64,000 nucleotides of DNA from Crossaster papposus. Lineage: Eukaryota; Echinodermata; Asteroidea; Velatida; Solasteridae. The stretch spans positions 186,001 to 250,000 of the forward strand of contig JBAIAA010000412.1 in NCBI GenBank assembly GCA_037893245.1, in the 5' to 3' direction. This document shows, in pieces, positions 19,581 to 63,679 of the stretch. The position numbers and the translations under genes were made by a program. Every line of letters begins with the position of its first letter. The first letter of the stretch is position 1. The notes under the pieces are model-generated. The model saw only the letters and a program-made list of their open reading frames with translations. It ran no database searches and was not told the DNA's origin.

Positions 19581-19874
19581 CGTGAATGACCAGGAAAACA
19601 TAAATATGGTTTAAATGGACTTTTGGTTGCCATGGCACTTTTCCTGTTCGACTTCATAATCCCCCAAAAAAAGAATTATTAGGAAACTGAATGTGACTTT
19701 CTTATTGACCGTGTGCTTTCACACATGACGGATGCAAGTTGAGCAAGGAATATTATATAAGAGCTGTTTTCGGTTCAGGCCATTTAACTTCTGACGCAGA
19801 AATATAAAGTCATTTTAGAAAACTGGAGATCTTTTTCTGTTTTACAACTTCTGTTTATCGCAAAACCAAACAAA
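19581..19874 (+). promoter_or_regulatory. Upstream region of IgR2 with TATA-like box
   Basis: tatataag at about 19,754-19,761 lies about 115 bp before the start codon and could serve as a TATA box. Most of this block (from about 19,638) recurs at 28,362-28,688 before IgR4, where the TATA-like word is altered. Confidence 0.45.
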
Positions 19875-25177: not shown

Positions 25178-25458
25178 GGACGGGGAAAAAAGATACAAAG
25201 ATAGGGTCAGGAGCTAAAACTACTGGACCAAATCGGGATTTATTTTTGGTCTCATTTTTCTTCTAGAAGGATACTCCATCTCTTTGTATAGGTAGTTTTG
25301 GCTTTGGGTCGTGGGGGTGCATTGCCTGTCCGGGTTTTTTTTGTGGGCCACTCTAGTTTCACAAACAAAAAATACTACAAAGATGTTTTTTCCAAAATAA
25401 ACACATATATCAAAATTAAGTCGATTCCTAACGCGTGTAAGCATTTCGAAAATATACC
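25178..25458. other. Ig-unit 3' flank
   Basis: Paralogous to about 30,370-30,655 after IgR4. No gene seen; the minus-strand frame across it is broken in the other copy. Confidence 0.5.
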
Positions 25459-25842
25459 TTAAAGGTAGTATACACCATTTGCAGATATCGAAAATATTTA
25501 CTACCGAATTATTAAGAAATATCTTACTCATTTGAAAGTAAATGTTGATTCTAGGCATCCAGCAAAATGATTGCGCTAGATATCCTGTAATTATTTCGAA
25601 AAATATAATTTTATAACGAAAAATTCGCGATCGCCAGACGGCGATCGCGAAAAAACAAAGAAAGTATAACTGCTCGACGCAGGTTGAAAACAATCGCTGT
25701 TTTTTGTGCTTTTCTCGGCATCCATGATTGTAAAACCTCGGACAGGTCCGTTAAACGATATTTACTATATACGATATTTACCTCCCAAATCTACTCATTC
25801 ATGATAATTCAAGCAATGACCAATGGTGTATCCTACCTTTAA
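25459..25842. mobile_element. TTAA-flanked MITE (family T2), copy B, with empty site
   Basis: A 384-bp copy with aggtagtatacacca-type inverted ends and a central cgcgatcgcc inverted repeat. The paralogous sequence at about 30,656-30,670 reads aatataccttaacag, a single TTAA with no insertion. This shows directly that TTAA is the duplicated target. piggyBac-like mobilisation is the likely source. Confidence 0.92.
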
Positions 25843-34345: not shown

Positions 34346-34985
34346 TAGCCTTTTGACAAGGCCTCGTGACTCTGGCTAAGCGGCTGAGATGAGTCTAGAT
34401 ACCCGGGGTGAACGCGCGACCGAGTGACGAATGTCACGAGGCCTTTTGCAATGTAGGTTTCACTGCTCGGCATGAATTATTCATAGATACATATTAGCAT
34501 GCCAATACGCCCAATCAGAACGGCGATCTCCCAGTTGGCTTCGTTCGTGATTCGTTCAATATCAAAGCATGTAAGAAAAGGTACAAAAACGTATATAAAT
34601 TTTGCTTCTGAGTTGAATATATGAATGATAAATACAAGATATCACATTTAAATCTATTTTACATGCAAAATTGCAATAAATTAGGAAGCAACTAATGATT
34701 TGAGCTAAATATTGTAAGTGACATGATTGGACATTCCCTGTTTGTAAAATGAACTAGTCCAACTCAAATATAAGCTGACGCCACGCGGAGATACGTTCGC
34801 TGATTGGACGCTACCATTTCGGTAGCGAATTCCAGTCGGAAACAAAGGTTAACATAAGAAATCCAAACCAGATTGATAAAGGCCACTTGTCTGGGCAATT
34901 CGCACTGACGTCACTCAGGTTTTCGCGATTAGTCTCTTTTTAGTCGCTCGGCGTCTATCAGACATGTGGCCTTGTTTAAAGGCTA
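34346..34985. mobile_element. 640-bp TIR element with 9-bp target duplication
   Basis: Begins tagccttttgacaaggcc and ends with its near complement. Flanked by acgcaatcc at 34,337-34,345 and 34,986-34,994. A second inverted pair (aggcctcgtgac / gtcacgaggcct) lies inside the left 115 bp. Non-coding. Ends and target length resemble the elements at 17,121 and 43,307; Mutator-like is my inference. Confidence 0.75.
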
Positions 34986-35027
34986 ACGCAATCCCTGCAC
35001 ACGTACACGTGGTTCCAAAAGTTCGTT

Positions 35028-35366
35028 TCAGGCTCCACGGAAAAACGGTTCAAAACAGCTGAAATCATCTTCTGCGAGCACAAGCCGCAAACTCACAGTA
35101 TAACAGTCAATATTTGCGGTCGACGGGGTTGTGAAGGTTTTCGTAGTCCCGTCGAAAAACTGAAGAAAATAGCATAAATTATCATCCCACCGACACAACG
35201 TGTCTATCGTTTCCGAAAACCGCCTGTCAAAAGATACCTGCCAAGTCCGTAGACTGTACAAATAATGAGTACTTTTTACTGTACCCAACACGTAGAAAGT
35301 CGTCTGGAATCCAGACTGAAAAAAAATGTGTGTCGCGTACATGGGTGGGTGTACATGTACGTACAA
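35028..35366 (-). CDS. Conserved 112-codon open frame, unknown function
   Basis: I do not recognise this protein. The frame is conserved in the paralog at about 58,120-58,490 with only one in-frame 3-nt indel and scattered substitutions, which is more than chance predicts for non-coding DNA. On the minus strand a tttttttcag acceptor-like site precedes the SGFQTTFYVLG segment, so it could be an internal exon. In this copy a TGA replaces a Trp codon kept in the other copy (FFRGA then WNELLEP). No signal peptide, membrane segment or domain is evident. It could equally be a relic inside an old repeat. Confidence 0.3.
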   Translation of the reverse strand: MYVHVHPPMYATHIFFQSGFQTTFYVLGTVKSTHYLYSLRTWQVSFDRRFSETIDTLCRWDDNLCYFLQFFDGTTKTFTTPSTANIDCYTVSLRLVLAEDDFSCFEPFFRGA

Positions 35367-35562
35367 GTTCCAAGATGTAAGGTCGTGTTCTCGAATTGTT
35401 GGCTTTGGCTGTGACTTAGCATAGCAACAGCTGAAGTCACAGCCAAAGTTAGTAATTCGCGGTATAGAACATTGATTGCATAATGTTATTATGGAGACCG
35501 GTATCTAGCGCCGTTTTAAAGTCATAGGTTGGATCGTTATGGTGGCTCTGAAGGGACATCGC

Positions 35563-35744
35563 ACATTGCACATTTCTGCGCAGATTTCCGCGATGTCGCA
35601 TATTTTATCGCACATTTCTGCGCCGAGTTCTGCGATATTGCACATTTTATCGCACATTTCTGCGCCGATTTCTGCGATATTGCACATTTTATCGCACATT
35701 TCTGCGCCAATTTCTGCGATATTGCACATTTCATCTAACATTTC
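35563..35744. repeat. 42-bp minisatellite, about 4 copies
   Basis: Tandem units built on gcacatttctgcgccgattt and gatattgcacattttatc. The unit is a multiple of three and stop-free in several frames, which explains the repetitive frames on both strands. A longer array of the same unit is at 58,674-59,012. Confidence 0.92.
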
Positions 35745-36594
35745 GTAATTTACAAAGATAACGAGCATAAAAAGAACAAGTGGAAGTGTAGCCCTTTTGT
35801 AGATTTGTGCTAATTTAATATGTAAACTGTAGCGTAACTGTTGGCGTTATGGGAATAGTTGTCTAAAGCCTTTTGTAAATAATGTAGTACCTGTACCGGT
35901 ATTTGTAAAGTTCTTGTAACTATACAGTAGATATAATCTGCTATGATGGTGGAGTTTAGAATTGCATGCCTATTTAAAGGATAAATGCCAAACAACAACT
36001 ATATATTGCTGCATGTTTTCTTAAAATAAATTCTTAAAAATCTGAGTAATTTTGCCAAACCGAGCTGTTTGCATAAAACACCATTTTTGGGGGGAGTTAA
36101 ATCACAGAATTGAGTGGGGGGGGGGTTAAATCACAGAATTTAGTAGCAGTTTAGTTTGGAGGAGAGGACCAAGTTTGAATACCCAAGGGTCGGGCAATTA
36201 AGGTTTTTGTTGAAGGTCCAATAGATAAGGAAACAGTCTAAATCGCGACCAGACAATGTCAGGAGAAACAAAATAAAAAAATCATAATAGATATGTATAC
36301 AAAGAGGAAGAGACTGTGTACAAATAAAAAATACAAATATTGAGAACAGTTCCCTGTTTTTCTTTCTTTCTAAAAACAGAAATCTAAAGGTACGCGTGAC
36401 ACGTAAACGTGGCACAATGCTAAAGCCCTCAGTGATAGCAGTTTTTAAACTGATAAGGCTATACCCTGTTTAAATAAAACTGTAAATAGAAATATAAAAC
36501 ATCAATCACTTCAAACAAATCTGCGCGTCAGCTTGTCAATCAGTATTTTTTTTGCAATAGCAATTTTATTTCAATATTTATTTATTCAGATATT
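35745..36594. other. Distal 5' flank of IgR5
   Basis: Paralogous to 59,340-60,210 and, from about 36,056, to 61,205-61,745. Contains a G run near 36,116. No gene seen; a minus-strand frame at 36,140-36,415 recurs in the other copies but differs by frame-breaking indels. Confidence 0.5.
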
Positions 36595-43306: not shown

Positions 43307-44162
43307 TAGTCTTTGGTCAAGACGTTGCTTAATTCGCAGCCACGAGAGGGCGCTATCGCGACAAACCATCATCACTCGCCATCCTGTCCGTAACAACGTC
43401 TTTGGAATTACGTAAATTTTTTTACAGAAAACGGTAAAAAACTAGTGCGCATGCGCTATTTATGTATGTTAATGAAGGAAATTTGTTCTTCGCGCACGCG
43501 CACATACGACAGCTAGTGTAGAATAGGTCAGGTAGCAAGTACCGAGATACTCACACGAGTCATCAGAGAAAGTCGCCGGCACGGTTTTCTCCGTGTGCAC
43601 GGTGGGCTCCGAGATGGCAGAAGGAGCGGACAGGAAACCTAGGCGATGGTGTTTAATCTGCGTTTAATTTATGGACATCATGTTTATTTCTAGTGATTTG
43701 GATAAATTTAACCTTTATTATAAGTGCATTGAGGTAGGAATACATTCCTATCCTAATCTTACATGTACCTCAATTGCAAGTGTTATCAAAAAAGGAAATT
43801 TTGAAAATTATTCACATGATGATGTATTTTGAATTTCATTTGAGGCCAAAAAGAATTAACAAACAGCACTCTAAATGTCGCTGTTTGTTGCTTTGTATTA
43901 ATAACTGAAACTCAATTAGAATGACTAAATTGGCAACTGCAGTGTAAAGATAAAATGTGTCTAATACTAATTATAGTTTTCCCCTCTGAAAAATAGGCAT
44001 AAAAGTCTGAGGGAATATTTTAGTAAGAATTAATTGATGATTACCCTGAAGCTTGCTTAGCCAGTAATATACTGTACCCAGCACGATATGATGAGACCAA
44101 AGGGACTACCCTTTATACCACCATATCCCACCATATACACTCTAGTACTTACCTAACGCCCC

Positions 44163-44179
44163 TCCCCCCCCCCCCCCCC

Positions 44180-44223
<44 letters not shown>
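44163..44223. repeat. Poly-C tract of about 60 bp
   Basis: Nearly uninterrupted C run inside the 2.4-kb element, with a G run at about 44,299-44,309 downstream. Such runs are error-prone in assembly, so the length is uncertain. Confidence 0.85.
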
Positions 44224-44390
44224 TATTCCCTAAAAACCTACAAAGAATCATGAAAAAACCCAGAATATTCCGCAAGCACAATGGCGACCACAAAGGAGGG
44301 GGGGGGGGGCAATTTTTAAAATTATATGAAAAGGCACATAATTATATACGTAAGCAAAATTGTTTCCTTTGAGAAGTTGGGTTACTGTGA

Positions 44391-45214
44391 TACCCCCTTC
44401 ACATACACGAATTTTTCTTACGAGTCTTTACGGATCGCACAGATTCACAGATCGTTCCTGGATCCTTACGATTTGGCCAGTTTTACGACTGATTTAAGTG
44501 TTGTTACGAGTTATTACGGGCTATTTACGGTTTATTACGGATTATTACGAGTTATTGCCATATGTATTTACGTCAAAATTCCACGATTTGTTACGAGTTG
44601 TCACGGATAACTACGAGCAACTTACGAGCATTTTACGACCTGTTTACGTGTTGTTACGAATAGTTACGAGTTAGTTACAAGTATTTACGAGTCCTCAGGA
44701 TTTGTTGCCAAAAAATATATAAATCTTGCAAATCTCAATGTACATGTACAATCATTCGTAAAGTATACGTATTTATTATTAAAGTACTCGTAACTACACG
44801 TAAAGTGCTCGTAATAACTCGTAACAATCCGTAAAGCCATCGTAACACGACCCGAATGAAATCGTTAACAACACGTAAGCACTCGTAATAATCCGTAAAC
44901 AAATCGTAAACTAACCGTAACAAATTGTTAAAAAAATTGTTACGAGTCATTTATGGATTTTTGCGAGCAGTTTACGGATGGTTACGTGTTGTTGCGAGTG
45001 GTTTACGTTACGGATTGTTACAAGCTTTTTACGAGTTATTTACGGAAAACTCAAACCGTGGACAATCGTAAGATTTTTTTGTGTCTGCGAGTTGTTGCGA
45101 GTTGTGACGATTTTTTTACGGATACCAGCAAGTTATTTACAGATGCTTGCGATTGACTACGAGTTGGCGATCCGTAAGGACTCATAAGAAAAATCCGTGT
45201 ATGTGAAGGGTGTA
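44391..45214. mobile_element. 824-bp TIR element filled with ttacgag iterons
   Basis: Inverted ends of about 45 bp begin taccccct-tcacatacacg at the left and close with the complement at 45,214. Between them lies a long field of degenerate 8- to 11-mers of the ttacgagt / ttacggat type: mostly + orientation at 44,420-44,690, mostly inverted at 44,755-44,935 and + again to 45,180. No coding capacity. It is nested in the 43,307-45,733 element. Iteron-filled foldback-like elements are known; the family here is unassigned. Confidence 0.75.
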
Positions 45215-46109
45215 TAAAGATCCTAAAAAGAAATTAAAAAAATAAATTGCAAAGGTGAAATTCGTCCTGAATTTATGACTAAAGAAATTCATGAAAATAA
45301 ATATATTTTAAGGGGATCGTTGTCATTTTCAAAATACCAAACGGATTCTGCCTTTAAAACTTGTTGGCAAGAGATGACACTAATTAATATGTACCGAAAA
45401 GTCTTCCATTTTCACGAATAACGTTGAACACGTTTGATGATAAAATGTGTATGAGTGTGTGTACACATGTATACGTGTATTGTACACAAATGTACACACA
45501 CATCCAGATGCAATGAGAAGTTGAGTCAGGGTGTTAGACCTATGCATATATGTATGTTTATGCAAAGTACGTAATGTACGCTGCATTCATTAGGCTAAGC
45601 AGGTGCGTGCGCACATCTCTACCTCGACGTAATTCCAAAGACGTTGTTGCGGACAGGATGGCGAGTGATGATGGTTTGTCGCGATAGCGCCCTCTTGTGG
45701 CTGCTAATTAAGCAACGTCTTGCCCAAAGACTAACGCAATCCCTGCACACCAACCTCGTTCCCAGGGCTTACTTTATTTTCAACCACGATTTTCAATAGT
45801 AACCCCTGGGATGGGAACTTCTTTCTCGTGCCTGGATTGGATAGTGACAAAAACAGTAGCGGCTTATTAGCATATATTCAATATTCATATTAGTTAGAGG
45901 AATTGCGACCGTACAGTTGGTGATTCCATCGTATTCAGTTGGTGATTCCATCGTATTCCATACGACGGCATTATACCAACTGTGCGGTCGTAATTTTGTT
46001 GATAAATGTTTGCAGGCGGCGCCGCGCCGCGCCAAAACTTAAAAGTGAAACTTTTGAGTTTCTAACGTTATTAACGTTACTTTTCTGCAGTACGTGTATA
46101 TTCTCGAAA

Positions 46110-46604
46110 ATGTCTGCAATGGCGACGCCGAGCCCCTCAAAAAGTACAGCCGTTAAATCCAATACTTGCATATTGTGTGGCAAAAGCGACAGTCGTGGGA
46201 CGCACATCTGGAGATTCAGTGGACAAAAAAACAGTTTTCCGCAATTGCTTTCACAGCTCAACTTGCCTATACCGTGTGACTTGATCACCGACACAATATG
46301 CCGAAGTTGCGGAACAAAGGTCCATAAAACGGTAACGTTTCTGGAGGATGCAAGGGTCAACATCGCTAAACTGGTGTGCACTAGCACTAGTTGTAGCAAA
46401 AGATTCCTAAGATCTCCTGGTCAGAGTGCTCCAGCTGCCAAACGGCGGGTTTTGGGTCCTGTCAATACCAACGGCGCCCCCCGTAGTCCGAGGCCTGTTG
46501 TCCCCAAAGTCTGCCCTTCATCAAAACGAAGCCCGGGGAAGCCTAATTTGCCTCGTGTGTGCACCACGTACGGAAACATCACAACGAAAACTGGTATCGC
46601 AAGG
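46110..46604 (+). CDS. Exon 1: ZAD-like zinc-binding N-terminus
   Basis: 165 codons ending at a GTATGT donor. Residues 18-85 hold two CxxC pairs 40 residues apart, with hydrophobic spacing (ICRSCGTKVHKTVTF) as in ZAD domains, which mediate dimerisation in insect zinc-finger proteins. A basic, Pro-rich linker follows (about 128-155). The open frame extends upstream to 45,939, but the Met at 46,110 begins just before the domain and is preferred. A DNA- or protein-binding role for the transposase is inferred. Confidence 0.65.
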
Positions 46605-49600
46605 GTATGTACATTTGACCTTTTCATTTGTATTGTAGCCTGTATGGAAATAATTTATCCCGTGCTGTAACAACTAACATTAGGTCGATAGGTAGCCAGG
46701 TTGGACTCCAACCTGGGCTATATCGACCGTACTATTGGAGCTTTATTTTTCGTCCAACCTGGGCTAGGTCGATAGGCAAATTACATGGTGAAACATCACA
46801 TTTGCACTCTAGTGCAAATAGGCAGTTTATTTTCGAATAATTTAGTATTTAGGCCAAAAAAAAAAAAAAACATGTTTAGCGTCACCGCCCGCTTCCTTTT
46901 TGGGGGCCGCCTCCTTTTTTCCTTTTTTTTTCTTTTTGAAAAAAAATGATAAATTTGACCATTTTGGTTAAAAAATTAATAAAAAATAAAAAAAATTGGT
47001 TAAAGATAATAAAATTTTAAGATCGTATTTTAGACTTTAGCATCACTGTGTACATGCTCTGAAAATATATATTTTTTCTAATAGGAAGGCTAGGGTGTGA
47101 CGTGTAGTCGTGTACGGTGTATGATCTACCCACATGAATTTTGATTTTTAATCGTGGGTGAACCATGTTTTAATTTTAAATTGGAAGATAGGGTGTGACA
47201 TGTTCACTACATGACTCGAATTAAGATGTGTCGGGCGGCCATTTTGAAAAAAAAAAAAAAAAAAAAGGGCCTCCTCCTTCCTTTAAAAAAAAAGGCATGA
47301 CGCTAAACATGTTTTTTTTTTTTTGGCCTTAGGGATCACTCAAAGAGGATGCAGCTTTTGCATCACAGGGGAAATTTACTGGAGTAGGGGCTTTCTTTGT
47401 TAAATTTTTTAAATATAATAAACTGTTTCAAAATAGTTTTTAACCGCACCTAGTAAGTTTCCCTTGTGGTTCATTTAAAATGTTTAGAGCCAATAAAAGT
47501 ATAAAACGAATTTATTCAAAATGATTCTCTGGGTCACAGCTCACTTACCATTTGGGAATGAATGTCATGTAATTGTCATTTCCATTATTTAATTGAATTT
47601 CATCCAATTTCAGTACACAGGTTCAAATCAGCGCTTGTTGAGAGTAGAAGATGTGAACATCTTATCATCAGCAGTGTCAAGTAGAGATCCAGTTTCTATT
47701 TCCAATGCCATGTGGAGGATAAAACCCCTACAGAGTGCAATCAAATACTTGATCCTGATCACAGAGGTGAAAACCAACTGCTGCACACTTCAACAATATT
47801 CCATACTCAGGAAATGCAACTACTTGGATCATTCGACTTTCAAATGGAGGGACATCCTTCAGGAGATGGATAAACAGTAGGTTACTTCAGTTTCCTGTGT
47901 CATCCCTGTATTATTATATGATTATGATGTGCATCCTAGCATAAATGCATATGTACCTGTGGTGTTAGAAGGGATCAGTCTTCCCCAATCAACCCTCCAA
48001 TAAAGCCAAGTTTTGTTTTAATTTGGCCGTACTTCCTATGTGCGATATGAATACAATTTTGCTGGTATTAATACTCAATGCGCTCCTCGTTCATTTGATA
48101 CTTGTATACCAGGGGGATTGCTTCATCTACAGGTACGACGACTCTCTTAATTGTGTTTTTATTTAGAATAGAGTGGGAACCAGACACTTAAATTGAAATC
48201 AGGTAAGATGGCGTAAATATTACTTCCCAACTCTCTATTTTTTTCGCTGAGGGGGGTACGTGTGCACGGAGACCACACTGTTACCCACAGCTAGTGCTTA
48301 TAGTAATTGAAGGTAAATAAAAGGAAGGTTTTCATTGCTGTCTATTTCAGGTGTCCCTTTCTGCTTGATGTGCTGGTAACAACATCCAGCGACGATATGA
48401 ATGTCTTTCAAGATGGAAAAGTACCAGTCGTTTGCACAGTGTATGGGATGCTGCTGTACCAGATGAGTTGTCGTATTGGAAGACTGCAGCAGTTGTTTAC
48501 TATTCTCTTAAGCAGATCGGCAGCCAAGAAGGAGGTTAATTTCTTTGAAAATTCCCTCTAGACATGAAGCATTCTCATAATTGTTAGTCACAACTGCATG
48601 TAGCTGTGTAATTATGTGCAGTCAATTAGATTAGAGAATGTGGAAAATATTTATTATATTGTGATTGTTGTTAAAAGAGATCCCTTAAACACACAATACA
48701 AGAATTGTTTCAGTAAATTTGTTTTTAGTGGGAAGGCAGACGGACCTTGGTCAATTCCACAATACCCCAGACTTTCATTTACAGATGTTTCTTTAAAATA
48801 TTTTTATACCTGAACAGATCTACAATGATTTTCAACGGGTAGGCATATGCCAATCCTTCTCACAAAAAGATGTGCAGCTAAACAAAGTAGGTGGACATTT
48901 CAACGAGGAAGTGGTGGAACTGGTCAAAAAGGGACAGAAATTCCAGATTATTGGGGATAACTTTGACCTTCGCATTCAGCGACATGACATGACAAATGAC
49001 GCCAAGAACATTGACTTGCATTACTTTGCCAGCACCATTGTGTTTGATCGCATACCCTTTGTCCATCTGCCTGATGACAAACCAACCAGGCCACTTCAGC
49101 AATGTCCCATCTCATCATTCATGCCTAACGAGGATGAAATCAACACATTGAACAAGTGCTACATGATCCTAGTAGCAAGGGACATCGTTCAGTGCTGCCC
49201 TGCATTGGCCTTCATGAAGTCAGCGATACCAGACCACATCGAGCACACCTACAGTGACCTCACAAAGAAGAAGAGTGCCCTATTCACCCAAGAAATTCTT
49301 CCATGTAATGAGAACAACTATGGGGAAGTTGTCCAGATCCTCAACAGATATGAAGAATGGGTGCATAACATCTATACACCAAATTTACCAGTGGAGAAAC
49401 CAACAACTCGTATAAATGTGAGCATCTAATTTTAAATAACAGAGTAAAGTTTAATACGCTTTATATAAACCAGATTGTGGATTATTGTTATTTTTGTGAT
49501 AAATCATCAAATAGAACATGCTAAATTGTAAGCAAATTAGGCCAAATAGAACCAGCTCATCGTCCTCGCGCACTTCCTATTTTCCCCGCTGCCTCCTTAA

Positions 49601-52600
49601 ACAAAAATTAACAATTTAGTTTCTATGTTTTTCCAGCAAACCTGTGTATACATGCAAGTTTAAATTCTACTTTTAGGTGTAATGGCTCATTTGGACACAA
49701 ATATGCCAAGTAATCTGCATGTTATTATGCATAGGGAAATGGTCTCAATCAAATTGTTTTTAATGTGAAGTTTCTGCTATGAGTGTTTGAGACTGTATGT
49801 GTATTTATTGTGTTGTCTACCACTGTCCACTAAATTGTTAGTGAAAAGGCACTAAAGTATTGCATAAAATGTGTGCAAAATACACGTCAGTAACATTTTA
49901 AGATTGTTCTAATTTACAACCTGAATTTCTGGCTTGTTTTTCCCAGGAGGATGAGGGCAGTGATTTCGGCATGCAGGAAGCTGATGATCTACAAGACCTC
50001 ACTGATGATGTAAGTTATTGCCAAATAACAAAATGATGCCCTCACTAAACACAAAAATATCTAGGAAGGGCAACAACCCCAAAATGGATACACTCTACAT
50101 GTACTGTAAGTCAAAGTTTAAATGTTGGTTATACTTGGCATTAGGCCAAAATGATAAATATATCTGGGGGAAAAAAACAAGTAAATCTGTTTCTGTTGTA
50201 TGTTCGGGAGAATCATGTATCACCTACAAATTGGCAGCATCCAAAACTATTCACTCCCATTTGCTCGTCTCTCCCATATGAAAAAACCCAAAAAAAACCC
50301 TTTTTTTAGGCCCTAATTGTATTGTCTTTCTCCAACTGTCTAATTGTTGGTATTCTTGTCACTGAACACGTAGATTTAAGAATTTTGTAAAAAAACAATG
50401 GATCTTCTTCATCTTTCATATGATGAGCAGCTTAACTTGTTGCTGCATACATCGGTTTGATGACATTCGTGGAAACAGGGTGGGCCGCGTGAAGGTTGTC
50501 ATTTCCCACCCCAAACAATTGTTGAATTTGAAGGTATACATGTATTAAATGATGACTGAACATTGAACACTTTTTTGTTTGTGTGTGTTTTAAAAATTTG
50601 TTTTACAGGAAACTGGAGCAACATCTGATAATCAGAAAATCCAGTCTTGTCCAGACCAGCCAGGATCTCATATGGTGCAGTTAGATCCAGATGATCCACT
50701 ACATGACGTCCACATTCCCGTTGGTGGTGACCAGCTGACAAGGGTCCGGCTTGCCGGGGCAAAGGATCTCAGGGCTGGAGTTCACACTGCCAAACAGCGG
50801 TTTGATCATCTCTACCCCTTCGTTGGTGAAATGTGGCATGCTAAAAAGGCTTTTTTGAATGTAAGAAATGAAATTATGCATTTGCTATATTTTAAACATA
50901 ACCCAATACCAAATTACAGTCAGTTAATGGGGGGGGGGGGGGGGGGGGTGTTGCCTTCTTTACCTTGTTCTAAACGTTTTCTGTTTTGGAGTGAAACCAA
51001 CTAAACCATGCCATAAGGTTTTTCCCTCTTTTTAAAGTGCTTTTGCCTGTAAACCTTGACAATTATCAGGCCATATTGATTCCTCAATCCTTATAATTAT
51101 TATACAATATTTTATTATTCCAAAATATCAAAGTGCATATCACACTTTCACACCCATGTAATACTGTAGTAATTATGATAACCAAAGCAAAGTTCATGTA
51201 CAAGAAGCAATTTTTGTATCTCGACTTGTTTAAAGATAATTAGTTATCCAAAAAAGTGAATTGCGGATCGTCTGTGTCGTCTTTTCCCATGGTCGATCCA
51301 GATATGCCGTGTTCTTTAAAAAAGTCAAATTGTGTGCATTTTTAACGACGACCTCAAATGACCCCTACTTGACCTTGCATACAAGATTCATCAAAATCCA
51401 TGAAAGCATGTACAAGGTAGAAGTTATTAAAAAAAATTGAAAATGAAACATGTTGCTACACATTACATTGTTCAATTATTCACATGTTCTTAAATGATAT
51501 ATTTCTTTGTTTTTCCCCCACCAATATTTTTAAATGGTGTTTGATGTGCTGTTTAGCAACAAGTCAGCTCATGATGTCGGTACTCTGAAGTACTTTCGGG
51601 AGAGAATTGGAAGGCGCAATGTTACAAATCCTGACAAAAATTATGAAGCATGTGAACAGCTGTTTCTGACTGTCGGCAAGGGATACCTTCTGATTGCTGC
51701 TTGTCAATTCTGGGGAATGAAAGACTTGTTTTCTGAGCCTACCCAACACATCCCTACAAAACTGCAGCGAGAAAGACAAGATCACACAAAACTGTATGTT
51801 GATAAGGTACTCAATGAATTTGTGGATCAGTACATACTAGTCAGTTGTGAGTCTGAGCAGATGGTAGTAGCCAATGATAGATTGGTTCAGTGCAGCAGAG
51901 TTGCCCTTGATCATAATTACACGGTAAAACAGCCTGATGAAGTGATGGTTGAGAATGTACATGTAAAGGAACACATACATGTACAATCTACTGAGCACGT
52001 ACCCCAAATTCCTAACCCTCCAAAACCTCCGCCCACTCCAAATTTCCAAACATCTCCAAGGAAAGTGAAAAAAACTGATGATAAAACACCACCATCACAA
52101 ACTGCAAATCATTCAGACCAAGTTAGATCGTACGGGCTTTGTGTGCTTGACATGTATGTGTTTCTCCGACATATGATTGACACAACTAAAGAAGGAGATG
52201 GAAGTCGACTCCTGATAAACATGAAAAGGTTACTTCTTTACTTCTATGCAATGGGTCAGAAAAAGAACAAATATGCTCTAGAAATGCTAGTTGCTATTGC
52301 GCAAGTCGAAGCTCTTCTAACTCCCCAAATGGCCCAAAGAGTTTTATGGGGGCGCTTCTGTAGCATTAGAGGAGGAGCTGGTAACAACATAGAATGTGAT
52401 TTAATGCAAGAGATTTACAACAGAGAGGGCAAAAAACAAATCCAGTGCATGGGGCCAAATAAAACTATGAAGGCTATCCAACGAATCTCAAAAGCGCAAG
52501 CAGGTCTGCAGAAGATTTCAGAGAATTTTGCTGATAATACTTGTTTGCATAAATTGTCAGTTAAACACACTCATAGGTCAGCTGAAAAGGATGAAAAGCA

Positions 52601-52763
52601 GGTCTTGAAAGATTTGGTAAAACTACAGCCATTTATCTTCAGGAGTGGAAGATTACACAGTACTTTCCCAGTTGTCCCCTTTTGTCTGATCAATAATATC
52701 AATCATGACAAGTTGTGCTCATGGATCCGCAAACATGTCAATAATATCCAAGAAGGGTTGTAA
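46110..52763 (+). CDS. Transposase-like gene of the 12.4-kb element (7 exons, about 1028 aa)
   Basis: Exon model from splice sites and unbroken frame: 46,110-46,604; 47,614-47,876; 48,351-48,534; 48,818-49,417; 49,947-50,009; 50,609-50,860; 51,534-52,763. All junctions keep frame, and introns 1-5 are GT-AG. Exon 1 has C20-x2-C23 and C64-x2-C67, the layout of ZAD-type zinc fingers. Exon 4 has IIGDNFD, exon 6 GGDQLT and EMWHAK, and exon 7 GTLKYFRERIGRRN and the YALEMLVAIAQVEALLTPQMA stretch; I recognise this series from the DUF6589 family of animals and fungi. The conserved Asp residues could belong to an RNase H-like catalytic core (inference). Oddity: no AG precedes exon 7 (the bases are AA at 51,532-51,533), so intron 6 may not splice normally. 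Confidence 0.7.
46851..47331. mobile_element. MITE in intron 1 of the transposase-like gene
   Basis: Ends are inverted: aggcc then an A run then acatgtttagcgtca at the left, and the complement ending at 47,331. It is rich in homopolymers and non-coding. It is an insertion into the larger element. Confidence 0.75.
48818..49417 (+). CDS. Exon 4: central DUF6589-like segment
   Basis: 200 codons between a CAG acceptor and a GTGAGC donor, both phase 0. Contains IIGDNFDLRIQ and LHYFASTIVFDR followed by a Pro/Asp loop. This order (GDN-F-D, then an H-F or H-Y-F motif) is what I know from DUF6589 proteins. The Asp in GDNFD is a candidate catalytic residue, not proven. Confidence 0.65.
51534..52763 (+). 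CDS. Exon 7: C-terminal DUF6589-like segment
   Basis: 409 codons and a TAA stop. It starts with FDVLF, then GTLKYFRERIGRRN and YEACEQLFLTV, then a low-complexity Pro-rich linker (about residues 155-190), then a helical block with GDGSRLLINMKRLLLYF and RVLWGRFCSIRGGAGNN. It may start from its own Met if intron 6 is not spliced, but the homologous order of motifs argues that it is the last exon of the larger gene. Confidence 0.65.
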   Translation: MVFDVLFSNKSAHDVGTLKYFRERIGRRNVTNPDKNYEACEQLFLTVGKGYLLIAACQFWGMKDLFSEPTQHIPTKLQRERQDHTKLYVDKVLNEFVDQYILVSCESEQMVVANDRLVQCSRVALDHNYTVKQPDEVMVENVHVKEHIHVQSTEHVPQIPNPPKPPPTPNFQTSPRKVKKTDDKTPPSQTANHSDQVRSYGLCVLDMYVFLRHMIDTTKEGDGSRLLINMKRLLLYFYAMGQKKNKYALEMLVAIAQVEALLTPQMAQRVLWGRFCSIRGGAGNNIECDLMQEIYNREGKKQIQCMGPNKTMKAIQRISKAQAGLQKISENFADNTCLHKLSVKHTHRSAEKDEKQVLKDLVKLQPFIFRSGRLHSTFPVVPFCLINNINHDKLCSWIRKHVNNIQEGL

Positions 52764-53330
52764 GGCAAAGAAAAAATACCCATGTCAGTTATCAAATATA
52801 ACTTATGCCAAGCATGCAAAAGAAAATAAGTAGAAGCAGTTTGTCACCTAAATTGTATGTTTTTAGTAGTGCTGGGATTTAAAACCGAATTGTTTAATAT
52901 TCGGTTTTAATTCCACTATTCGGTTTCGATTTAGAAAACCGAATATTCGAAACCAACCCCAAAAAGTTTAGCCTTGCATATTTGTGTGACACAGGCTGAA
53001 GAAGACAATTGTAACATCTTCCAATTGGCTCCATGGCCTCCGATTGTATACTAGAGGGAGGGAGGGGGGGGGGGGTGTTACATTATGCCTGCACGTTTTG
53101 TTATAATTTGGCTATATTTGTCTTATATTCAGTTTAAGGTGTTTGGTTCAATGCAGCCACCTACTGGTAGTTGTGGTGGGCAAGACAATGGTGGGAAGGG
53201 GTTGTTTATACATGTAGGTTTTTAATTCATATTGTGTTTCTCTTTTACTGTAATAATTTGTAATTTGTAACTCAAATATTTTATATTAAACGGACGATAA
53301 AGACTATGTTTAAACATAGCTGGAATCACC
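52764..53330. other. Region between the convergent transposon genes, part 1
   Basis: No gene. Has an AT hairpin of the aaaaccgaat type at about 52,878-52,950 and a G run at 53,059-53,075. Confidence 0.5.
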
Positions 53331-53442
53331 ATTCCGTCCCCAGGGCTCACTTTATTTCCAATCCTGAACCGTACCTCGTCTCCAATAATAAAAGCGGGTA
53401 GTGTTGAGTGCGTACAGCTCGACACCTTGGGAACGAGGTTAA
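53331..53442. mobile_element. 112-bp mini derivative of the same transposon family
   Basis: The left edge, ccccagggctcactttattt, resembles the left end of the 12.4-kb element (cccagggcttactttatttt). The right edge, ttgggaacgaggtt, resembles its right end. It is probably a small non-autonomous relative nested inside the large copy. Confidence 0.6.
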
Positions 53443-54582
53443 TTGCCAATGGCAGTAATAGTCTGGTTCACAGTAAATACGCTTTATTGTATGTATTGTG
53501 TAGAGAGCGACAGAGGCGGAAACATGTCATTTGACACAGACAGAATGGCGAAACACCGAAATTTACTTGCGACAATTTTCCGGGATTTCGGGGCTTTTGG
53601 GGCTGAATTTTACAAAAAAGGTATTTATGAATGGGAATAAATGTGTGTTCGGTCGGTATTAATCACTCTGGGTGCTGATAATTACTTGCTTCATGAACAG
53701 ATTGGGATAAATTTCAAATTTGACCCTTGTTTGACCTTAATTGACCCCTAACAAAAATGCCCGGAACTTTGAAGAGGGCAGCCGAAGCCAAATTTGTTCA
53801 GTACCCTTCAGGGATGCCCAAAACACTTTCAAACCTTTGTTGCCAAAATTTGGTCACGGGACATTAGCGTTCATCCCTTACTAATGGTACATAACACTTA
53901 CAACGCTCCAGAAAGTCATGGGTTTTACAAAACGTGTTTGTGAGAAAACTTACTTTAAACATCTTAAACAAAACACGCAAAAGATTAAAAAACAGGACAA
54001 GTAAGGTTAGGTTGAGCATAGCAACAGCTATGTTCTGATCATTATTTCTTCCTGAAATTTGCCACACATACAAACTATTGTATAAACAGCAAAATATCAA
54101 AATTTTGAAAACGTGGGATACTGACGAGGACCTGATTTTCATATTTAATTACCGTGTTAATTAGACCACTATTGGACTTTAATCCAAACACTAACTATGC
54201 AAACACTACGAAAAATCACGTAATTTAAGAGGTTTTCGATCATGTGATTTCACCCAAAAAATGGGAATTTGTAGAGGACTTGGGCATTCCAAATTATGCA
54301 AAATCCTAAAATTGACCACCCCTTCATATTTTGACTTGGGATGGCCATATCTCTGAATCACATTGTGCGACTTTACTCTCATTTTGTAATGACAATTCAC
54401 AATTTGAATGAATGAATTATTGAATGATTGTCAGATTGGGCCTTCGTAAAACATATTCGCAGTTTCATCTGATTCTGATTTGATTACTTTTGACCTGGAA
54501 TACTTCACTGAGATACCAAAGGGATTTATTGTGTACTTGCACACATAGTATGTCATGCATATTTTTTTTTACATAACTGAGC
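53443..54582. other. Region between the convergent transposon genes, part 2
   Basis: No domain-bearing frame. The ORF at 53,443-53,640 is short and unsupported. AT-rich. Confidence 0.5.
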
Positions 54583-54980
54583 TTAAAGGTAGGATACACA
54601 TTACACCATTTGCAGATATCAAAAATATTTACTACCGAATTATTATGTAAGAAATATCTTACACATTTGAAAGTAAATGTTAATTCTAGGCATCCAGCAA
54701 AAGGATTGCGTTAGATATTCTGTAATTATTCCGAAAAATATAATTTTACAATGAAAAATTTGCTATCGCCGTCCGGCGATCGCAAAAAAACAAAGATAAC
54801 ATAAGAATAACTGCTCGACGCCGGTTGAAAAACCCCGCTGTTTTTCGTGCTTTTCTCGGCATCCATGATTGTAAAACTTCGGACAGCTCAGTTAAACGAT
54901 ATTTACTATAAAATACAACCCCCCAAATCTACTCATTCATGATAATTCAAGCAATGACCAATGGTGTATACTACCTTTAA
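54583..54980. mobile_element. TTAA-flanked MITE (family T2), copy C
   Basis: A 398-bp copy with TTAA at both ends, nested in the 12.4-kb transposon. The central palindrome is partly decayed (gctatcgccgtccggcgatcgc). Its presence shows that T2 was active after the large element inserted. Confidence 0.85.
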
Positions 54981-55147
54981 TTATTGCTTTACATGTACAG
55001 TGTACTTCATTTTAGTTTTACAAGGCAATAAAGAGATGATACATGTAAATGAAAGTTGTTTGCTACGTGTTGATCATAATGAACAGATGAATATTTATTT
55101 AATTTCCTGTATAGAAAGATTGTGAAATTTAACATTTCATGCACATT

Positions 55148-56579
55148 CTACTGCGAGTCGTCATCATATAGAAAGTTAAGGCAAAACTCCATGTCACATT
55201 CAAGGCACCAACATTTTAGCTTGCACATGTCGCAGCACAGATGAGGGATGCTTGCATGTGTACCACATGGCTTATACCCAAAGTGTTGAAGAATAGTTGT
55301 CCTCCTGCAATTATTTCCTCTGCATAAGTCCCGCATTACTTGCTGCATGCCTTCCTTATTCTTGGCTATATCTGAACCATTGAAGTACATAGTAGCTGTG
55401 GCTGGACAACCATCCCTTCCTGCGCGCCCTGTCTGTTGAAAGTAGGCTTCTATTGTATGTGGCACACCAACGTGAACAATATGGCGAATACTAGGGGCAT
55501 CTACACCCATCCCTACTGCACATGTGGCAAACACAACCCTGCATGTGTTTTTCGATGATGAAAGCTGCTTGAGCAGAACCTGTTTCATTTCTTCTGTTTG
55601 GGGAGCATGGTACTGCCCAAACAATCTGTGATCTGGACCAACACATGTTTCTGGATAGTACTGATGAACACCGAGTACATTTTCAAAAAGCCTGTATGCA
55701 TAGCCACAGTACTTCAATTTCATGTAGATGAGTGGTGGGATAGCATATGCCTTCTTCAAGTAACTTAAGAGCTATTGGATATAGTACGTCATGATAACTT
55801 TGGACTCCATATATAGAGGGCAGTCGACTCTTTACGGTGTACGTGATATTTTTCCAGTCAGGATTCCTGCTAATAATAACAGGTTTCCTCAAGCAAAGCG
55901 ACTTAATTATGGCTTCTCTGTAATCCTGTGGTGCAGTTGCAGTCATTGCAGCTGTTGGAGTATGTGGATATAGGCTAGCTAAAATGCCTAACTTTGCAAA
56001 ATCCGGTCTGAAATCCAGGCCCCACTCCACTATGCAATGTGCTTCATCTACCACTGTCGCAACCACTGTGTTTTGAATTGGATCAGACAATAAAAAGGAT
56101 CGTGATGACACAACTGCTTCCGGATGGGCATAGATGATATTTGCTTTGCGCAGTTGCTCCTCACTGCTCCCAGCAATACAAGCATCTGTAGATGAAATTT
56201 GGTTTGTCTCTTCTTCTTTATCACTATCATGATCAAGACAAATCCCAATCACCATATTACCACTAAGTATACCAACGTGCACCCCAATGCTGGAAAGTTT
56301 TGAGGCTTGATCTTGAACGATTGCATTTAGAGGTGTGACAACCAGAAGTTTGGGATTGTTTATGTTTAGTTTATATCCCAGCATATACACAGCTATTTGG
56401 TAAATGAGGCTTTTTCCATAGCCTGTAGGAAGAATGACGAAAACATCACGTCCATTAAACAGTTGCCACAATGCCTGACACTGTGCAGGTTTGAGATTAA
56501 TACTCAATTGTAACCGATTTACTGCGTATTGAACCGAGGGCCAAAAGCTGTTCATGTTTGATGATACATGTAGATCCAC
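55148..56579 (-). CDS. RecQ-like DNA helicase of the transposon, one frame shift
   Basis: Superfamily 2 helicase read on the minus strand. Start at 56,579 (MDLHVSSNMNSFWPSVQYAV). Motif I LPTGYGKS, motif Ia VVTPLNAIVQDQ, motif II DEAHCIVEWG, motif III MTATAP, then in a second frame motif V-like FATCAVGMGVDAP and motif VI QQTGRAGRDG, followed by a Cys cluster (CCDMCKLKC) like the RecQ zinc-binding region. The frame changes near 55,730-55,755 at CYPTT, where the coding potential passes from one frame to the next, consistent with one 1-nt indel. Length and motif order suit a RecQ core without the HRDC domain. It converges with the transposase-like gene and probably helps excision or repair of the element (inference). 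Confidence 0.8.
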
Positions 56580-57238
56580 ACAACTTTAATACAACTGTCA
56601 ACTGATTGAAGAAGCTGTTGGAAAGCTGACCAACTCACTCCCAAACCAACTTGTCCTAGGTCAACTCGGCCTGTATAGGAAAATATACGTAAATAAAGTT
56701 AAGTATGTACACTACACACACAAAAGTTGGTCGAGATTGCCATGTTTAGGGCGTCCTTTTTTATTTCTGTGGTTCTCATTTCCGATCGCATTCGACCCTA
56801 TTTTGGGCTCCCGACCCAAGAAAAAACACCATTTTTATTACCGCTGACCCTATCTGGAACCCCATTCACACAGCAAATCCCATTATTAATGACTGGGTAA
56901 CTATAGTCATACAGTTCGCTAATTTACCATGTTGATTTTAACTTTAGCAAACTCGATTTTGTGGAAAGAGGGCAGAGTTACTTTTTAATTTTGGAAATTG
57001 TAAGGAAAAATGCAAAGACAACCCGCATTACTGTTTACAAATATAACATGGCAACATGCATGCCTCCGAGTCCGGGTGAAAAAAAAGATGAGAAAAATCC
57101 ATTTTCTTTAACATTACGGAAAGAAGGTACATGTATACAGCCTACCTCCACTTCTTTGGTTGTGTATAAAGTCTAGACTAAAGTGCAGAACAAAATCTGA
57201 AATGTATCACGGCCCTGGCCTAGTCCGAGTATTAATAT
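56580..57238. other. Upstream side of the helicase gene
   Basis: Candidate promoter side of the minus-strand helicase. No clear TATA or further exon seen, and no other gene. Confidence 0.45.
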
Positions 57239-57346
57239 AGGACCCTACATCGCTTTTTTAAACATTTGGACATGATCTGGCGATAGATCATCCAAATCAT
57301 CGCCAGATCATGTCCAAATGTTTAAAAAAAGCGACGTAGGGTCCTA
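57239..57346. mobile_element. 108-bp near-perfect palindrome (foldback MITE)
   Basis: taggaccctacatcgctttt ... ctggcgat at 57,239-57,285 is mirrored at 57,299-57,346 with one or two differences and a 13-bp loop. Likely a minimal foldback element. Confidence 0.75.
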
Positions 57347-58106
57347 GTTTGGACTATCATTCATGGCCCTAGATTCCTTCATGTTGTCAACATTTTTGCA
57401 CAAACTTGACCTTCACTGAGAATGAGTAACATTATTATATGATAAAATACTTTTTTCCAAAAGTATGTGGTTTATCATAAATTTGTCAGCTTTAATTAAA
57501 GAAAATATTAATAAATGTTAACTTAGGATTTTCAGAGATTTTTTAAAGCATGGTTAATCTTTAGGGAACACTCATCATTATGATTATCAATATGCTTTAT
57601 CAGCCGAATTTTTGTTTGCCCAATTTCCGGACGGCACTGGTCATGCCGTTTTTTTTAGACAACTTTTGTTTAGACTCGTCTAGGATGTCCTACAACAAGT
57701 ACAATTACCCCAACAAGACGCTAAGTATGTAACTGAGTAATACTAATACATGTTCATTAAACAATCCTTACTTACAAAATACGAGCGTGTAGCTAGTTGA
57801 GATTGCATCGGCACAGAACCATAGAGAAAGGAACAGAAGTCAGAACCCATGATAATGATTCCCATGAACTGCACGTATTTTGCGGTCTTTGTGCACAATA
57901 TTGTGAATCAAGCTAGCAACCAGGGAAGATGTGAACTTTTAGTATTGCCGCCAGACTACTACTACGTGTCAGAATACACCAATCACAGGGAACCTAATTT
58001 GCATGCGTATCCAAAAATATTGGATATGTAAATGATCCAATACCAGGGTGAGAGTGCAGCTTTTGTGTCGGTGAGGGCGCTGCTCGATATCCTGGGAACG
58101 AGGTTG
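57347..58106. other. Right end of the 12.4-kb transposon
   Basis: Non-coding, ending in the right TIR. No gene seen. Confidence 0.5.
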
Positions 58107-58116
58107 CCTGCACACG

Positions 58117-58486
58117 TACGTACACGTGGTTCCAAAAGTTCGTTCCAGGCTCCACGGAAAAACGGTTCAAAACAGCTGAAATCCTCTGCGAGCACAAGCT
58201 GCAACCTCACAGTATAACAGTCAGTATTTGCGGTCGACAGGGTTGTAAAGGTTGTCGTAGTCCCGTCGAAAAACTGAAGAAAATAGCAGAAATTATCATC
58301 CCACCGACACAACGTGTCTATCGTTTCCGAAAACAGCCTGTCAAAAGATACCTGCCAAGTCCGTAGACTGTACAAATAATGAGTACTTTTTCCTGTACCC
58401 AACACGTAGAAAGTCGTCTGGAATCCAGACTGAAAAAAAATGTGTGTCGCGTACGTACACCTGGTGCGTTTACGTACAAGTTCCAA
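58117..58486 (-). CDS. Second copy of the conserved unknown open frame
   Basis: Paralog of the frame at 35,028-35,366. It reads from YATHIFFQSGFQTTFYVLG to FFRGAWNELLEP; the Trp codon is intact, and one codon fewer lies in the VLAEDFS segment. The open frame runs on into the inserted transposon, so its end here is not original. Function unknown. Confidence 0.3.
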
Positions 58487-58673
58487 GATGTAAGGTCGTG
58501 TTCTCGAATTGTTGGCTTTGGCTGAAGCAACGGCTGAAGTCACAGCCAAAGTTAGTAATTCGCGGCATAGAACATTGATTGCATAATGTTATTATGGAGA
58601 CCGGTATCTAGCGCGCTCCGTTTTAAAGTCATAGGTTGGATCGCTATGGTGGCTCTGAAGGGACATCGCACAT

Positions 58674-59012
58674 CGCACATTTCTGCGCAGATTTCCGCGA
58701 TGTCGCAGATTTTATCGCACATTTCTGCGCCGATTTCTTCGATATTGCACATTTTATCGCACATTTCGGCGCCGATTTCGGCAATATTGCACATTTTATC
58801 GCACATTTCTGCGCCGATTTCTGCGATATTGCACATTTTATCGCACATTTCTGCGCCGATTTCTGCGATATTGCACATTTTATCGCACATTTCTGCGCCG
58901 ATTTCTGCGATATTGCACCTTTTATCGCAGATTTCTGCGCAGAAATGTGCGATAAAATGTGCAATATCGCACATTTCTGCGCAGAAATGTGCGATAAAAT
59001 GTGCAATGTGCA
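58674..59012. repeat. 42-bp minisatellite, 6 or more copies, with inverted end
   Basis: Same unit as 35,563-35,744 but longer. At about 58,925 the array turns round: the last units are in reverse orientation (gcgcagaaatgtgcgataaa), forming a long palindrome with the preceding units. Stop-free frames across it on both strands are artefacts. Confidence 0.9.
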
Positions 59013-60210
59013 AATTTACGAGGCGGGATTCAGCCCTATACACGTCATGCATATAATTTGCATACACCAGGCGGGATTCCTCCGAATTTATGCCAGATTC
59101 ACTGCTAGTTACCGGACAACATTTTGAAGGACAATAAAATCAGGGAGCTAGACTAAATTAAAAAAATTTAACATAAGAGAAACTGACTAAGTAAATTTGC
59201 ATAAAATGTCAAAGTGAACAAAGAAATATGCAAGGCAGGACGTGAACATGGGCGCCAGTCAGTAGTACCTCTGTATTTTTTGTATATGTTTTTGCAAATG
59301 TTAGTTAATAAGAATCGGATATTTTTTGAGAAGTTTGGAACTTTAATTTTGTAATTTACAAAGATAACGAGCATAAAAAGAACAAGTGGAAGTGTAGCCC
59401 TTTTGTAGATTTGTGCAAATTTAATATGTAAACTGTAGCGTAACTGTTCACGTTACGAAAATTGTTGTCTAAAGCCTTTTGTAAATAATGTAGTACCGGT
59501 ATTTGTAAAGTTCTTGTAACTATACAGTAGATATAATCTGCTATGATGGTGGAGTTTAGAATTGCATGCCTATTTAAAGGATAAATGCCAAACTGCAACT
59601 ATATATTGCTCCATGTTTTCTTAAAATAAATTCTTAAAAATCTGAGTAATTTTGCCAAACCGAGCTGTTTGCATAAAACGCCATCGAATGTTTTTTTGGG
59701 GGGAGTTACATCACAGAATTGAGTGGGGGGGGGGGGTTAAATCACGGAATTGAGTAGCAGTTTAGTTTGGAGGAGAGGACCAAGTTTGGATAGTTCTTTA
59801 CCCTGCAGGGTCGGGCAATTAAGGTTTGTGTAGAAGGTCCAATAGATAAGGAAACAGTCAAAATCGCGACCATAAAATGTCAGGAGAATAATCATAATAG
59901 ATATGTATACAAAGAGGAAGAGACTGTGCAAAAATAAAGAAATACAAATATTGAGAACAGTTCCCTGTTTTTTCTTTCTTTCTTTCTAAAAACAGAAATC
60001 TAAGGGTACGCGTGACACGTAAACGTGGTACAATGCTAAAGCCCTCAGTGATAGCAGTTTTTAAACTGATGAGGCTATACCCTGTTTAAATAAAACTGTA
60101 AATAGAAATATAAAACATCAATCACTTCAAACAAATCTGCGCGTCAGCTTGTCAATCAGTATTTTTTTGGAAAGACCAATTTTATTTCAATATTTATTTA
60201 TTCAGATATT
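59013..60210. other. Distal 5' flank of the truncated IgR6
   Basis: From about 59,290 it is paralogous to 35,745-36,594 and partly to 26,380-26,570. G runs at 59,699 and 59,725. No gene seen. Confidence 0.5.
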
Positions 60211-61744: not shown

Positions 61745-62032
61745 TGATGGCGTTACGGATGTGACGGTAAGAAAGAGACAGGGAGCTATAAACTCAACGG
61801 CTGTTTTAGACTAGTCTACTGATCGTCCATCACATTTGTGTTACAACTGTCAATGCACAAGGAGACATGGTCCGAGGCGTGTGATTTTTTCTAGGACGGA
61901 ATACTCACACGTGGTAATGCCGTGTAGCTCAGACTAAACACACGGTGAGACATCTAAAATAACGTGCTCACCTTTAGGTAACTGACATTAGAATTGTTTT
62001 TCTTCTGAAAACTCGCTGTTCAAGCATAAGAA
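61745..62032 (+). promoter_or_regulatory. Conserved upstream block of IgR7
   Basis: Type-A upstream block with small deletions relative to the blocks before IgR1 and IgR5. Confidence 0.45.
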
Positions 62033-63679
62033 ATGATATCAAAAATGGCGGTTTTTGCCTTTCTGCTTATCGGAGCGACGCTCTGTGATGCAACCGATGT
62101 TTTCTCCAGAATGTCTCCATCTTTGTCGGTGGATGCTGGCAGCAATGTCACACTGACTTGTTGGTCCGATTATGCAACTAGCTCCTGTGGATTTGACCTA
62201 TCGTGGTTCTACAGACGAAACGGGCAGACGACAAGAGACAAACTACTAGTCTCGTGTACCACTGTGCCAAATGCTAAGCTTGAGAAACGAATAACAGCGA
62301 GAATAGACGACAATGATGATAACAATAGACAGTTCCATGTGGATATCAACAACGTACAACCAGAAGACAGTGGGGAGTACTGGTGTTACCTTGAATTTGG
62401 AACTACGGTGCACACGTCTTCCAATGCCACACTAACAGTCAATCGTTTGCCACCAAAGTTCCCTCCTTCGTGCGAGGTAGCCCCTTCCCATCCCACCATC
62501 GGTACAAGGATCACATTGACATGCACTCTCTCACCTGAAGATCCACCGAGCCTATTGACGTGGTTTCAAACACCATCACGTGGTTCCATGGAGCAAATGG
62601 CTTTTTCACGTGAGACAAATCCAGGAAGTGTCCATTTGATTGAGCTTACCCTGAAAGAAACTGACAACATGAAGGAGTTCACATGTGTGGCCGGTCTCTA
62701 TATCAGCGGTCCAAACTGTTCCCTGACACCTCTCCAACTAATAGCAACAGTTTCTGTCTTCCCTTCGTCGGTCACTTTGTACGAGGGGCAGACAGCGACC
62801 TTTACCTGTCACTTCGACGCAACATCTCAAGCGCCACCAGTGACAGCATATAAGTGGCAAGTGAATAAGCAAGGCAAAACATCAGTGGCCGTACGTCTCT
62901 CCAACTCGGCTAACTATCAAGGTAAATTTGAGCTCGGTCGGCAAGGGCAGACGCTACGGATTCTTAACTTGACAGCCGAAGAACACAACAACTGTATCAT
63001 AACATGCACGGAGGTTCCTAAAGGAGAATCAGAACGAATTGTGATCGAGTCCTTTCTGGTCGTTCTTCCATGCCCTACACGAGCGTACCCAACAACCACG
63101 TGGTTTAATAAGAGAACGGGACAAGAAGGTGATGATGACAATAATTTAGCTGACTGTACTTCGTCGGAGGGTCTTACGTTCAGGCCTGGGGTGATCGTTT
63201 CTTGTACTCTTGCCTTGATTTTCCTTATCCTTGTCGTCGTGCTGTCATGCTGCTTGGTGAGGTACAAAACGAAAGCTGTCAGATCCCACCAAGCCCAGTG
63301 TTTCTCTAGAGAAGACAGATGCACCGGTACTAAGGGAGCTCCAGCGAATACTCACAAGTACCAGGACCTTCTACAGGAACCTCGGGTGCACATTGGTCTT
63401 CTGAACAGACGGGACAGCATCGAGAGTTTCGTCTACGACAACGTAAACCTCAACCAACCTAGGGGAAATGGGTGCCCCGGTAGCGAGGGAGCTCCGGTGA
63501 TTATTCACGAGTACCAAAACATACATGAACCTCGGGTGCACCTCGGCCTTTCAAACAGACGGGACGGCATCGAGGGATTCGTCTACGCCAACGTGAACCT
63601 CAAGCAACCTGCTGAAGGCAACGAGACAACGCAGGGTGGCACTGGTGAGCAGACACTTTACGATGAAGTCGCTATGTAA
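62033..63679 (+). CDS. IgR7: mosaic three-Ig-domain receptor with terminal ITSM
   Basis: 548 aa, intronless. Signal peptide about 1-20 and a V-set-like domain close to IgR1 (DATDVFSRMSPSLSVDAG). The second Ig domain is IgR1/IgR5-like. The third Ig domain, transmembrane segment and two-module tail are nearly those of IgR5. Tail tyrosines sit in KYQDLL, FVYDNV, EYQNI, FVYANV and the terminal TLYDEV (Y543), an exact ITSM. Unlike IgR5, the second module has FVY instead of SVY, so there is no clean ITIM there. GPDTSGPN of the paralogs reads GLYISGPN here. The stop-transfer is RYKTKA instead of KYKKKA. Likely a regulatory cell-surface receptor; ligand unknown. Confidence 0.88.
   Translation: MISKMAVFAFLLIGATLCDATDVFSRMSPSLSVDAGSNVTLTCWSDYATSSCGFDLSWFYRRNGQTTRDKLLVSCTTVPNAKLEKRITARIDDNDDNNRQFHVDINNVQPEDSGEYWCYLEFGTTVHTSSNATLTVNRLPPKFPPSCEVAPSHPTIGTRITLTCTLSPEDPPSLLTWFQTPSRGSMEQMAFSRETNPGSVHLIELTLKETDNMKEFTCVAGLYISGPNCSLTPLQLIATVSVFPSSVTLYEGQTATFTCHFDATSQAPPVTAYKWQVNKQGKTSVAVRLSNSANYQGKFELGRQGQTLRILNLTAEEHNNCIITCTEVPKGESERIVIESFLVVLPCPTRAYPTTTWFNKRTGQEGDDDNNLADCTSSEGLTFRPGVIVSCTLALIFLILVVVLSCCLVRYKTKAVRSHQAQCFSREDRCTGTKGAPANTHKYQDLLQEPRVHIGLLNRRDSIESFVYDNVNLNQPRGNGCPGSEGAPVIIHEYQNIHEPRVHLGLSNRRDGIEGFVYANVNLKQPAEGNETTQGGTGEQTLYDEVAM

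Follow-up and report, generated by a model that had tools for sequence, protein, structure and literature searches.

A likely AcademH-type DNA transposon, probably inactive, with a DUF6589 gene and a RecQ-type helicase gene in Crossaster papposus

Introduction

What kind of mobile element carries a gene of the DUF6589 family next to a gene for a RecQ-type helicase? The question is raised by a 64,000-nucleotide stretch of DNA of the sea star Crossaster papposus (GenBank assembly GCA_037893245.1, contig JBAIAA010000412.1, positions 186,001 to 250,000 of the forward strand; hereafter the window), in which positions 45751–58106 are occupied by an insertion of 12,356 bp. The initial annotation of this DNA had proposed a cut-and-paste transposon of an undescribed or little described superfamily. 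The insertion is likely to represent an AcademH-type DNA transposon, in a copy that is full-length and probably inactive; the kind of element itself thus fits one that has already been described. The point that may be new is the identification, from the anatomy of the element, of DUF6589 as the Academ/AcademH transposase, a link that is perhaps unreported.

Results and discussion

Borders of the insertion and its empty site

The insertion is bounded by terminal inverted repeats (TIRs) of 16 bp, of which the left one, CAACCTCGTTCCCAGG, lies at positions 45751–45766 on the plus strand and the right one at 58091–58106 on the minus strand. The two repeats are identical at 16 of 16 bases, and their likeness ends at base 17. 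Directly outside them stand the two copies of a target-site duplication (TSD), CCTGCACAC, at positions 45742–45750 and 58107–58115, which agree at all nine bases. When the window was scanned for perfect 9-bp direct repeats abutting perfect inverted repeats of at least 12 bp (arms 0.5–20 kb apart), the pair belonging to the 12.4-kb element was the only one found, and none occurred in 100 control sequences generated by a first-order Markov model. Lowering the minimum length of the inverted repeats to 8 bp gave three pairs in the window (the 12.4-kb element and two neighbours) and 10 across the 100 controls. At up to 3 mismatches the TIR itself occurs three times in the window, as compared with 0.23 occurrences expected, a count reached in none of 100 shuffles; the third occurrence is located inside the element, at positions 53426–53441.

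A paralogous locus at positions 34978–35744 represents the corresponding empty site. Here both flanks meet without the insert and CCTGCACAC is present as a single copy. For the left flank (45726–45750), 24 of 25 bases are identical to this locus; the right flank (58107–58851) shows 92% identity over an alignment of 759 columns; just past CCTGCACAC, the filled and the empty locus differ by one GTAC unit. The matching TIRs and TSDs and the empty site therefore demonstrate that 45751–58106 is the product of one integration event and not a chance arrangement of repeats, in agreement with the 16-bp TIRs, the 9-bp target duplication and the empty paralogous site that had been annotated initially.

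RecQ helicases are common host genes, a general consideration that favours reading the DUF6589 and helicase genes as genes of the host that happen to lie between repeats. The absence of a perfect TIR and TSD pair from every control sequence and the broken helicase frame described below both speak against such a reading, and the empty paralogous site refutes it; we give it next to no credence.

The seven-exon DUF6589 gene

On the plus strand, a gene model placed by hand spans positions 46110–52763 and comprises seven exons that are all joined in frame, with 1,027 codons and a stop codon. All six introns have GT donors and five of the six have AG acceptors. Comparison of the 1,027-residue protein with the Pfam profile of DUF6589 (PF20231) gave a match over residues 545–963 with an E-value of 3.6e-39 and 135.1 bits, well above the cut-off of 27, which covers profile positions 103–410 of 410. 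In a Pfam search listing matches up to E 10, DUF6589 and zf-AD were the only families reported for this protein, a listing that is incomplete above E 0.1, where the filters of HMMER drop most matches.

Exon 1 (46110–46604) encodes a ZAD-like region at residues 19–81 that contains a CxxC...CxxC pattern (C20, C23, C64 and C67). Its match to the Pfam family zf-AD is below the cut-off of 28 bits, with 20 bits for the exon 1 piece (E 8.5e-4) and 17.6 bits for the spliced protein. The seven-exon gene of the initial annotation was accordingly recovered with its DUF6589-like part firmly identified and its ZAD-like part below threshold. Exons 2 (47614–47876), 3 (48351–48534) and 5 (49947–50009) are joined by in-frame splices with AG/GT borders. 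Exon 4 (48818–49417), for which neither Pfam nor NCBIfam gave a match, lies upstream of the DUF6589 match and contains a GDNFD motif whose Asp361 or Asp364 is a candidate for the first acidic residue of a catalytic site. Exon 6 (50609–50860) forms part of the DUF6589 match (Pfam E 1e-7) and carries a GGDQLT motif with Asp576 as the candidate second acidic residue. The bulk of DUF6589 is encoded by exon 7 (Pfam E 1.2e-25; in NCBIfam a match at chance level only, 0.044), in which Glu911 or Glu916 is the candidate last acidic residue. These candidates were picked by inspection only.

The acceptor of exon 7 is the exception among the splice sites and is uncertain. The DUF6589 profile favours a junction at 51537 (126.3 bits) that lacks an AG. 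With the closest in-frame AG, located 27 bases downstream, the exon would start at 51564 and the protein would be 9 residues shorter at a score of 116.0 bits. In-frame AGs near the start of the exon are found at 51562, 51589 and 51601. We therefore give the exon as 51537 or 51564 to 52763.

The RecQ-type helicase gene

Convergent to the DUF6589 gene, the minus strand contains two halves of a RecQ-type helicase in different, overlapping frames. The N-terminal half (55683–56585; first methionine of the frame at 56555) comprises a DEAD domain (3.9e-22), which is overlapped by a match to ResIII, and its best relative among solved structures is DNA helicase Q5 (1.2e-26). The C-terminal half (55148–55771) comprises a Helicase_C domain (2.1e-10) followed by a tail resembling the RecQ zinc-binding domain (RecQ_Zn_bind, 6.9e-5), which at 24 bits is just under the cut-off of 25. 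For both halves the best NCBIfam model is TIGR00614, with 138.1 bits (3.7e-40) for the N-terminal and 91.2 bits (6.2e-26) for the C-terminal half, each of which alone is below the cut-off of 219.8. The convergent RecQ-like helicase seen in the initial annotation is thus confirmed as to its family, and its frame is split. The two frames overlap at 55.68–55.77 kb, and the gene as read is either broken there or affected by a sequence error at this point.

Assignment to AcademH

Academ is listed among the DDE superfamilies in the accessible portion of PMC9004415. Its two lineages are distinguished in an excerpt of PMC10045372 by their TSDs, which measure 9 or 10 bp in AcademH and 3 or 4 bp in AcademX, a difference that seems to be tied to the encoded helicase (AcademH) as opposed to a nuclease (AcademX). 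AcademH is reported from animals and fungi in the title of Kojima 2020 (Mob DNA 11:15), and a survey of fungal host–transposon fusions counts it, in the text available, among the sources of helicase domains (PMC10799480). In the part of PMC12730594 at hand Academ goes unmentioned.

The element in the window has both of the features by which AcademH is described: a RecQ-type helicase encoded between the TIRs on the minus strand, in two halves in different frames, and a TSD of 9 bp matching at nine of nine bases in the one copy seen. This combination fits AcademH and hence argues for membership of Academ, not against it. No difference from AcademH was found in a comparison that took helicase and TSD length from the published description and did not extend to transposase, termini, length or gene orientation. 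AcademX, which belongs to the same superfamily if the assignment holds, differs from the present element in its TSD of 3 or 4 bp and in carrying a nuclease in place of the helicase; no nuclease domain was detected in eight open reading frame (ORF) pieces searched with Pfam at E 1 or in the 1,027-residue protein, the other small ORFs of the element being unscanned.

The statement of the initial annotation that Academ TSDs are shorter than 9 bp applies to AcademX but not to AcademH. On this statement the proposal of an undescribed superfamily was based, which is therefore unsupported, since helicase and 9-bp TSD match the described AcademH. The anatomy does favour the other part of that proposal, namely a cut-and-paste element in which the DUF6589 protein is likely the transposase and the helicase an accessory protein.

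A superfamily apart from Academ would require that a DUF6589 transposase lineage had independently acquired both its RecQ helicase and its 9-bp stagger. Our literature search gave no text that links DUF6589 to Academ, and RecQ helicases have been gained by more than one superfamily, for example in KolobokH and Kolobok-1_CCri, as described in an excerpt of PMC9587614. Against this origin stands the fact that a helicase together with a TSD of 9 or 10 bp is the very trait by which AcademH is divided from AcademX (PMC10045372, in the same excerpt as above). We regard a separate superfamily as unlikely.

Kolobok elements duplicate a 4-bp TTAA. The present element resembles KolobokH and Kolobok-1_CCri in having a RecQ helicase beside a transposase and differs from them in its TSD, since CCTGCACAC comprises 9 bp and is unrelated to TTAA. 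The helicase of Kolobok-1_CCri is located on the complementary strand, and KolobokH is reported only from fungi, which also counts against a KolobokH-like origin in a sea star (both from the accessible text of PMC9587614). That the element is a member of Kolobok with a RecQ helicase is therefore extremely improbable.

Several observations weigh against the assignment to AcademH. It is derived from the anatomy of the element, and the proposed joint movement of the two genes is deduced from one copy. Curated Academ elements of bivalves, whose lineage and TSD are not stated, average 5,565 bp in the part of PMC10294476 available, which is less than half of the 12,356 bp found here, so that the element is long for Academ. 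A structure model of exon 7 alone, predicted from the single sequence, reached a mean predicted local distance difference test (pLDDT) score of 36.3 and a predicted template modelling (pTM) score of 0.21 and is too poor to show a fold. When solved structures were searched by sequence with the DUF6589 part, none was found at E 1, and a second search returned a ribosomal protein only (0.43).

Internal repeats and the state of this copy

Within the element, a segment of 107 bp at positions 53335–53441, with uncertain borders, has ends that both resemble those of the element itself: 27 bases at 53335–53361 are 89% like the left end and 24 bases at 53417–53440 are 88% like the right end. We consider this segment most likely to be a short non-autonomous relative, similar to a miniature inverted-repeat transposable element (MITE), that is either nested in the element or left over within it, and it suggests that the family had non-autonomous members.

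The presence of two internal ends, one left-like and one right-like, could also be taken to indicate a composite, in which a DUF6589 element (45751–53441) and a helicase element (53335–58106) share the internal TIR-like segment. The outermost ends, on the other hand, carry one perfect 9-bp duplication in common, and the bases immediately flanking the internal ends are unlike CCTGCACAC, as judged by eye (the scan took perfect inverted repeats only). In addition, the outer ends are identical to each other, whereas the internal right end shows 2 mismatches, and the segment delimited by the internal ends measures only 107 bp, a length more in keeping with a nested short relative. The evidence from the TSD and the empty site led us to reject the composite, which we hold to be very unlikely.

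Further repeats inside the element likewise point to its age. A repeat of approximately 400 bp lies between the two genes (54582–54981) and is 87% alike to two other long copies in the window, at 25458–25843 and 14989–15378; shorter partial matches to it are also present in the window. At 57254–57329 lies an inverted repeat whose 31-bp arms are perfect. Another, in intron 1 (46858–47324), has perfect 27-bp arms and consists in part of an A/T run. Because of the break in the helicase frame, the doubtful acceptor of exon 7 and the nested repeats, the sequence suggests that this copy of the element probably no longer works.

Possible roles of the two proteins

The TIRs and the 9-bp duplication are observed features; from the anatomy of the element we infer how the two proteins might act on them. 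The DUF6589 protein would be the transposase, with its N-terminal zinc finger binding the 16-bp ends or aiding dimerisation. Cleavage at the ends and their joining to the target, staggered by 9 bp, would be the work of an RNase H-like core within the DUF6589 region. As for the helicase, it could unwind or remodel DNA when the element is excised or joined or when the gap is repaired.

PF20231 is described in Pfam without a function, and in the present case the domain forms part of a full-length transposon. If DUF6589 is indeed the transposase of Academ or AcademH, a Pfam family without known function gains one, and DUF6589 members in genome annotations could become recognisable as transposon proteins. 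AcademH also raises the question of what part a RecQ helicase plays in DDD/E transposition and whether it has a bearing on the longer target duplication.

Searches for relatives and in the literature

Relatives were sought in prokaryote and virus collections with a few short peptide patterns, which detect close relatives only and have no bearing on the spread of the element in animals. Scans of virus contigs gave 4, 4, 0 and 55 matching stretches and scans of prokaryote genome contigs 19 and 54, none of which could be confirmed to be related. No exact match to the 18-bp left end was present in the virus contigs. In a protein search of a phage collection, the N-terminal half of the helicase matched 21 of 50,697 records, all at less than 60% identity, with 27–32% in the five records listed; the C-terminal half was not among the queries of any collection. 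Rfam gave no match within the window.

DUF6589 was absent from the literature searched, outside of which lay subscription papers, the original AcademH paper and Repbase. The query PF20231 returned a single off-topic match on nanophotonics. No text was found in these searches that joins transposon, RecQ and zf-AD, or Academ, XPG and transposase.

Neighbouring features of the window

Two different transposon-like elements, at positions 43307–45733 (2,427 bp, its 107-bp TIRs 96% alike) and 34346–34985 (640 bp, with short TIRs), both have the ends TAGYCTTT. They are inserted at the same base of the two paralogous loci, each being bounded on both sides by ACGCAATCC, and blastn at E 1e-3 revealed no similarity between them, a pattern suggesting that each was inserted independently at an identical site. 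The TSD of the 12.4-kb element starts 8 bp beyond that insertion site.

Repeats with an offset of 42 or 84 bp, which are open in several frames, are found by the right flank of the 12.4-kb element (58672–59007) and at the paralogous locus (35565–35745); the ORF at 58555–59139 had no Pfam match. C-type lectin-like ORFs and V-set receptor genes, both in tandem, point to an animal genome. The lectin-like ORFs lie at 3347–3901, 5381–5803 and 9027–9590, with a Lectin_C match in the first (3.5e-19) and the other two alike by eye. The window also contains tandem genes for immunoglobulin V-set receptors in long single open frames (11512–13296, 19788–21251 and 62030–63676), with similar ORFs at 22923, 28641, 36834 and 60457; Pfam was run on three of these seven ORFs, and tyrosine motifs in the tails were judged by eye.

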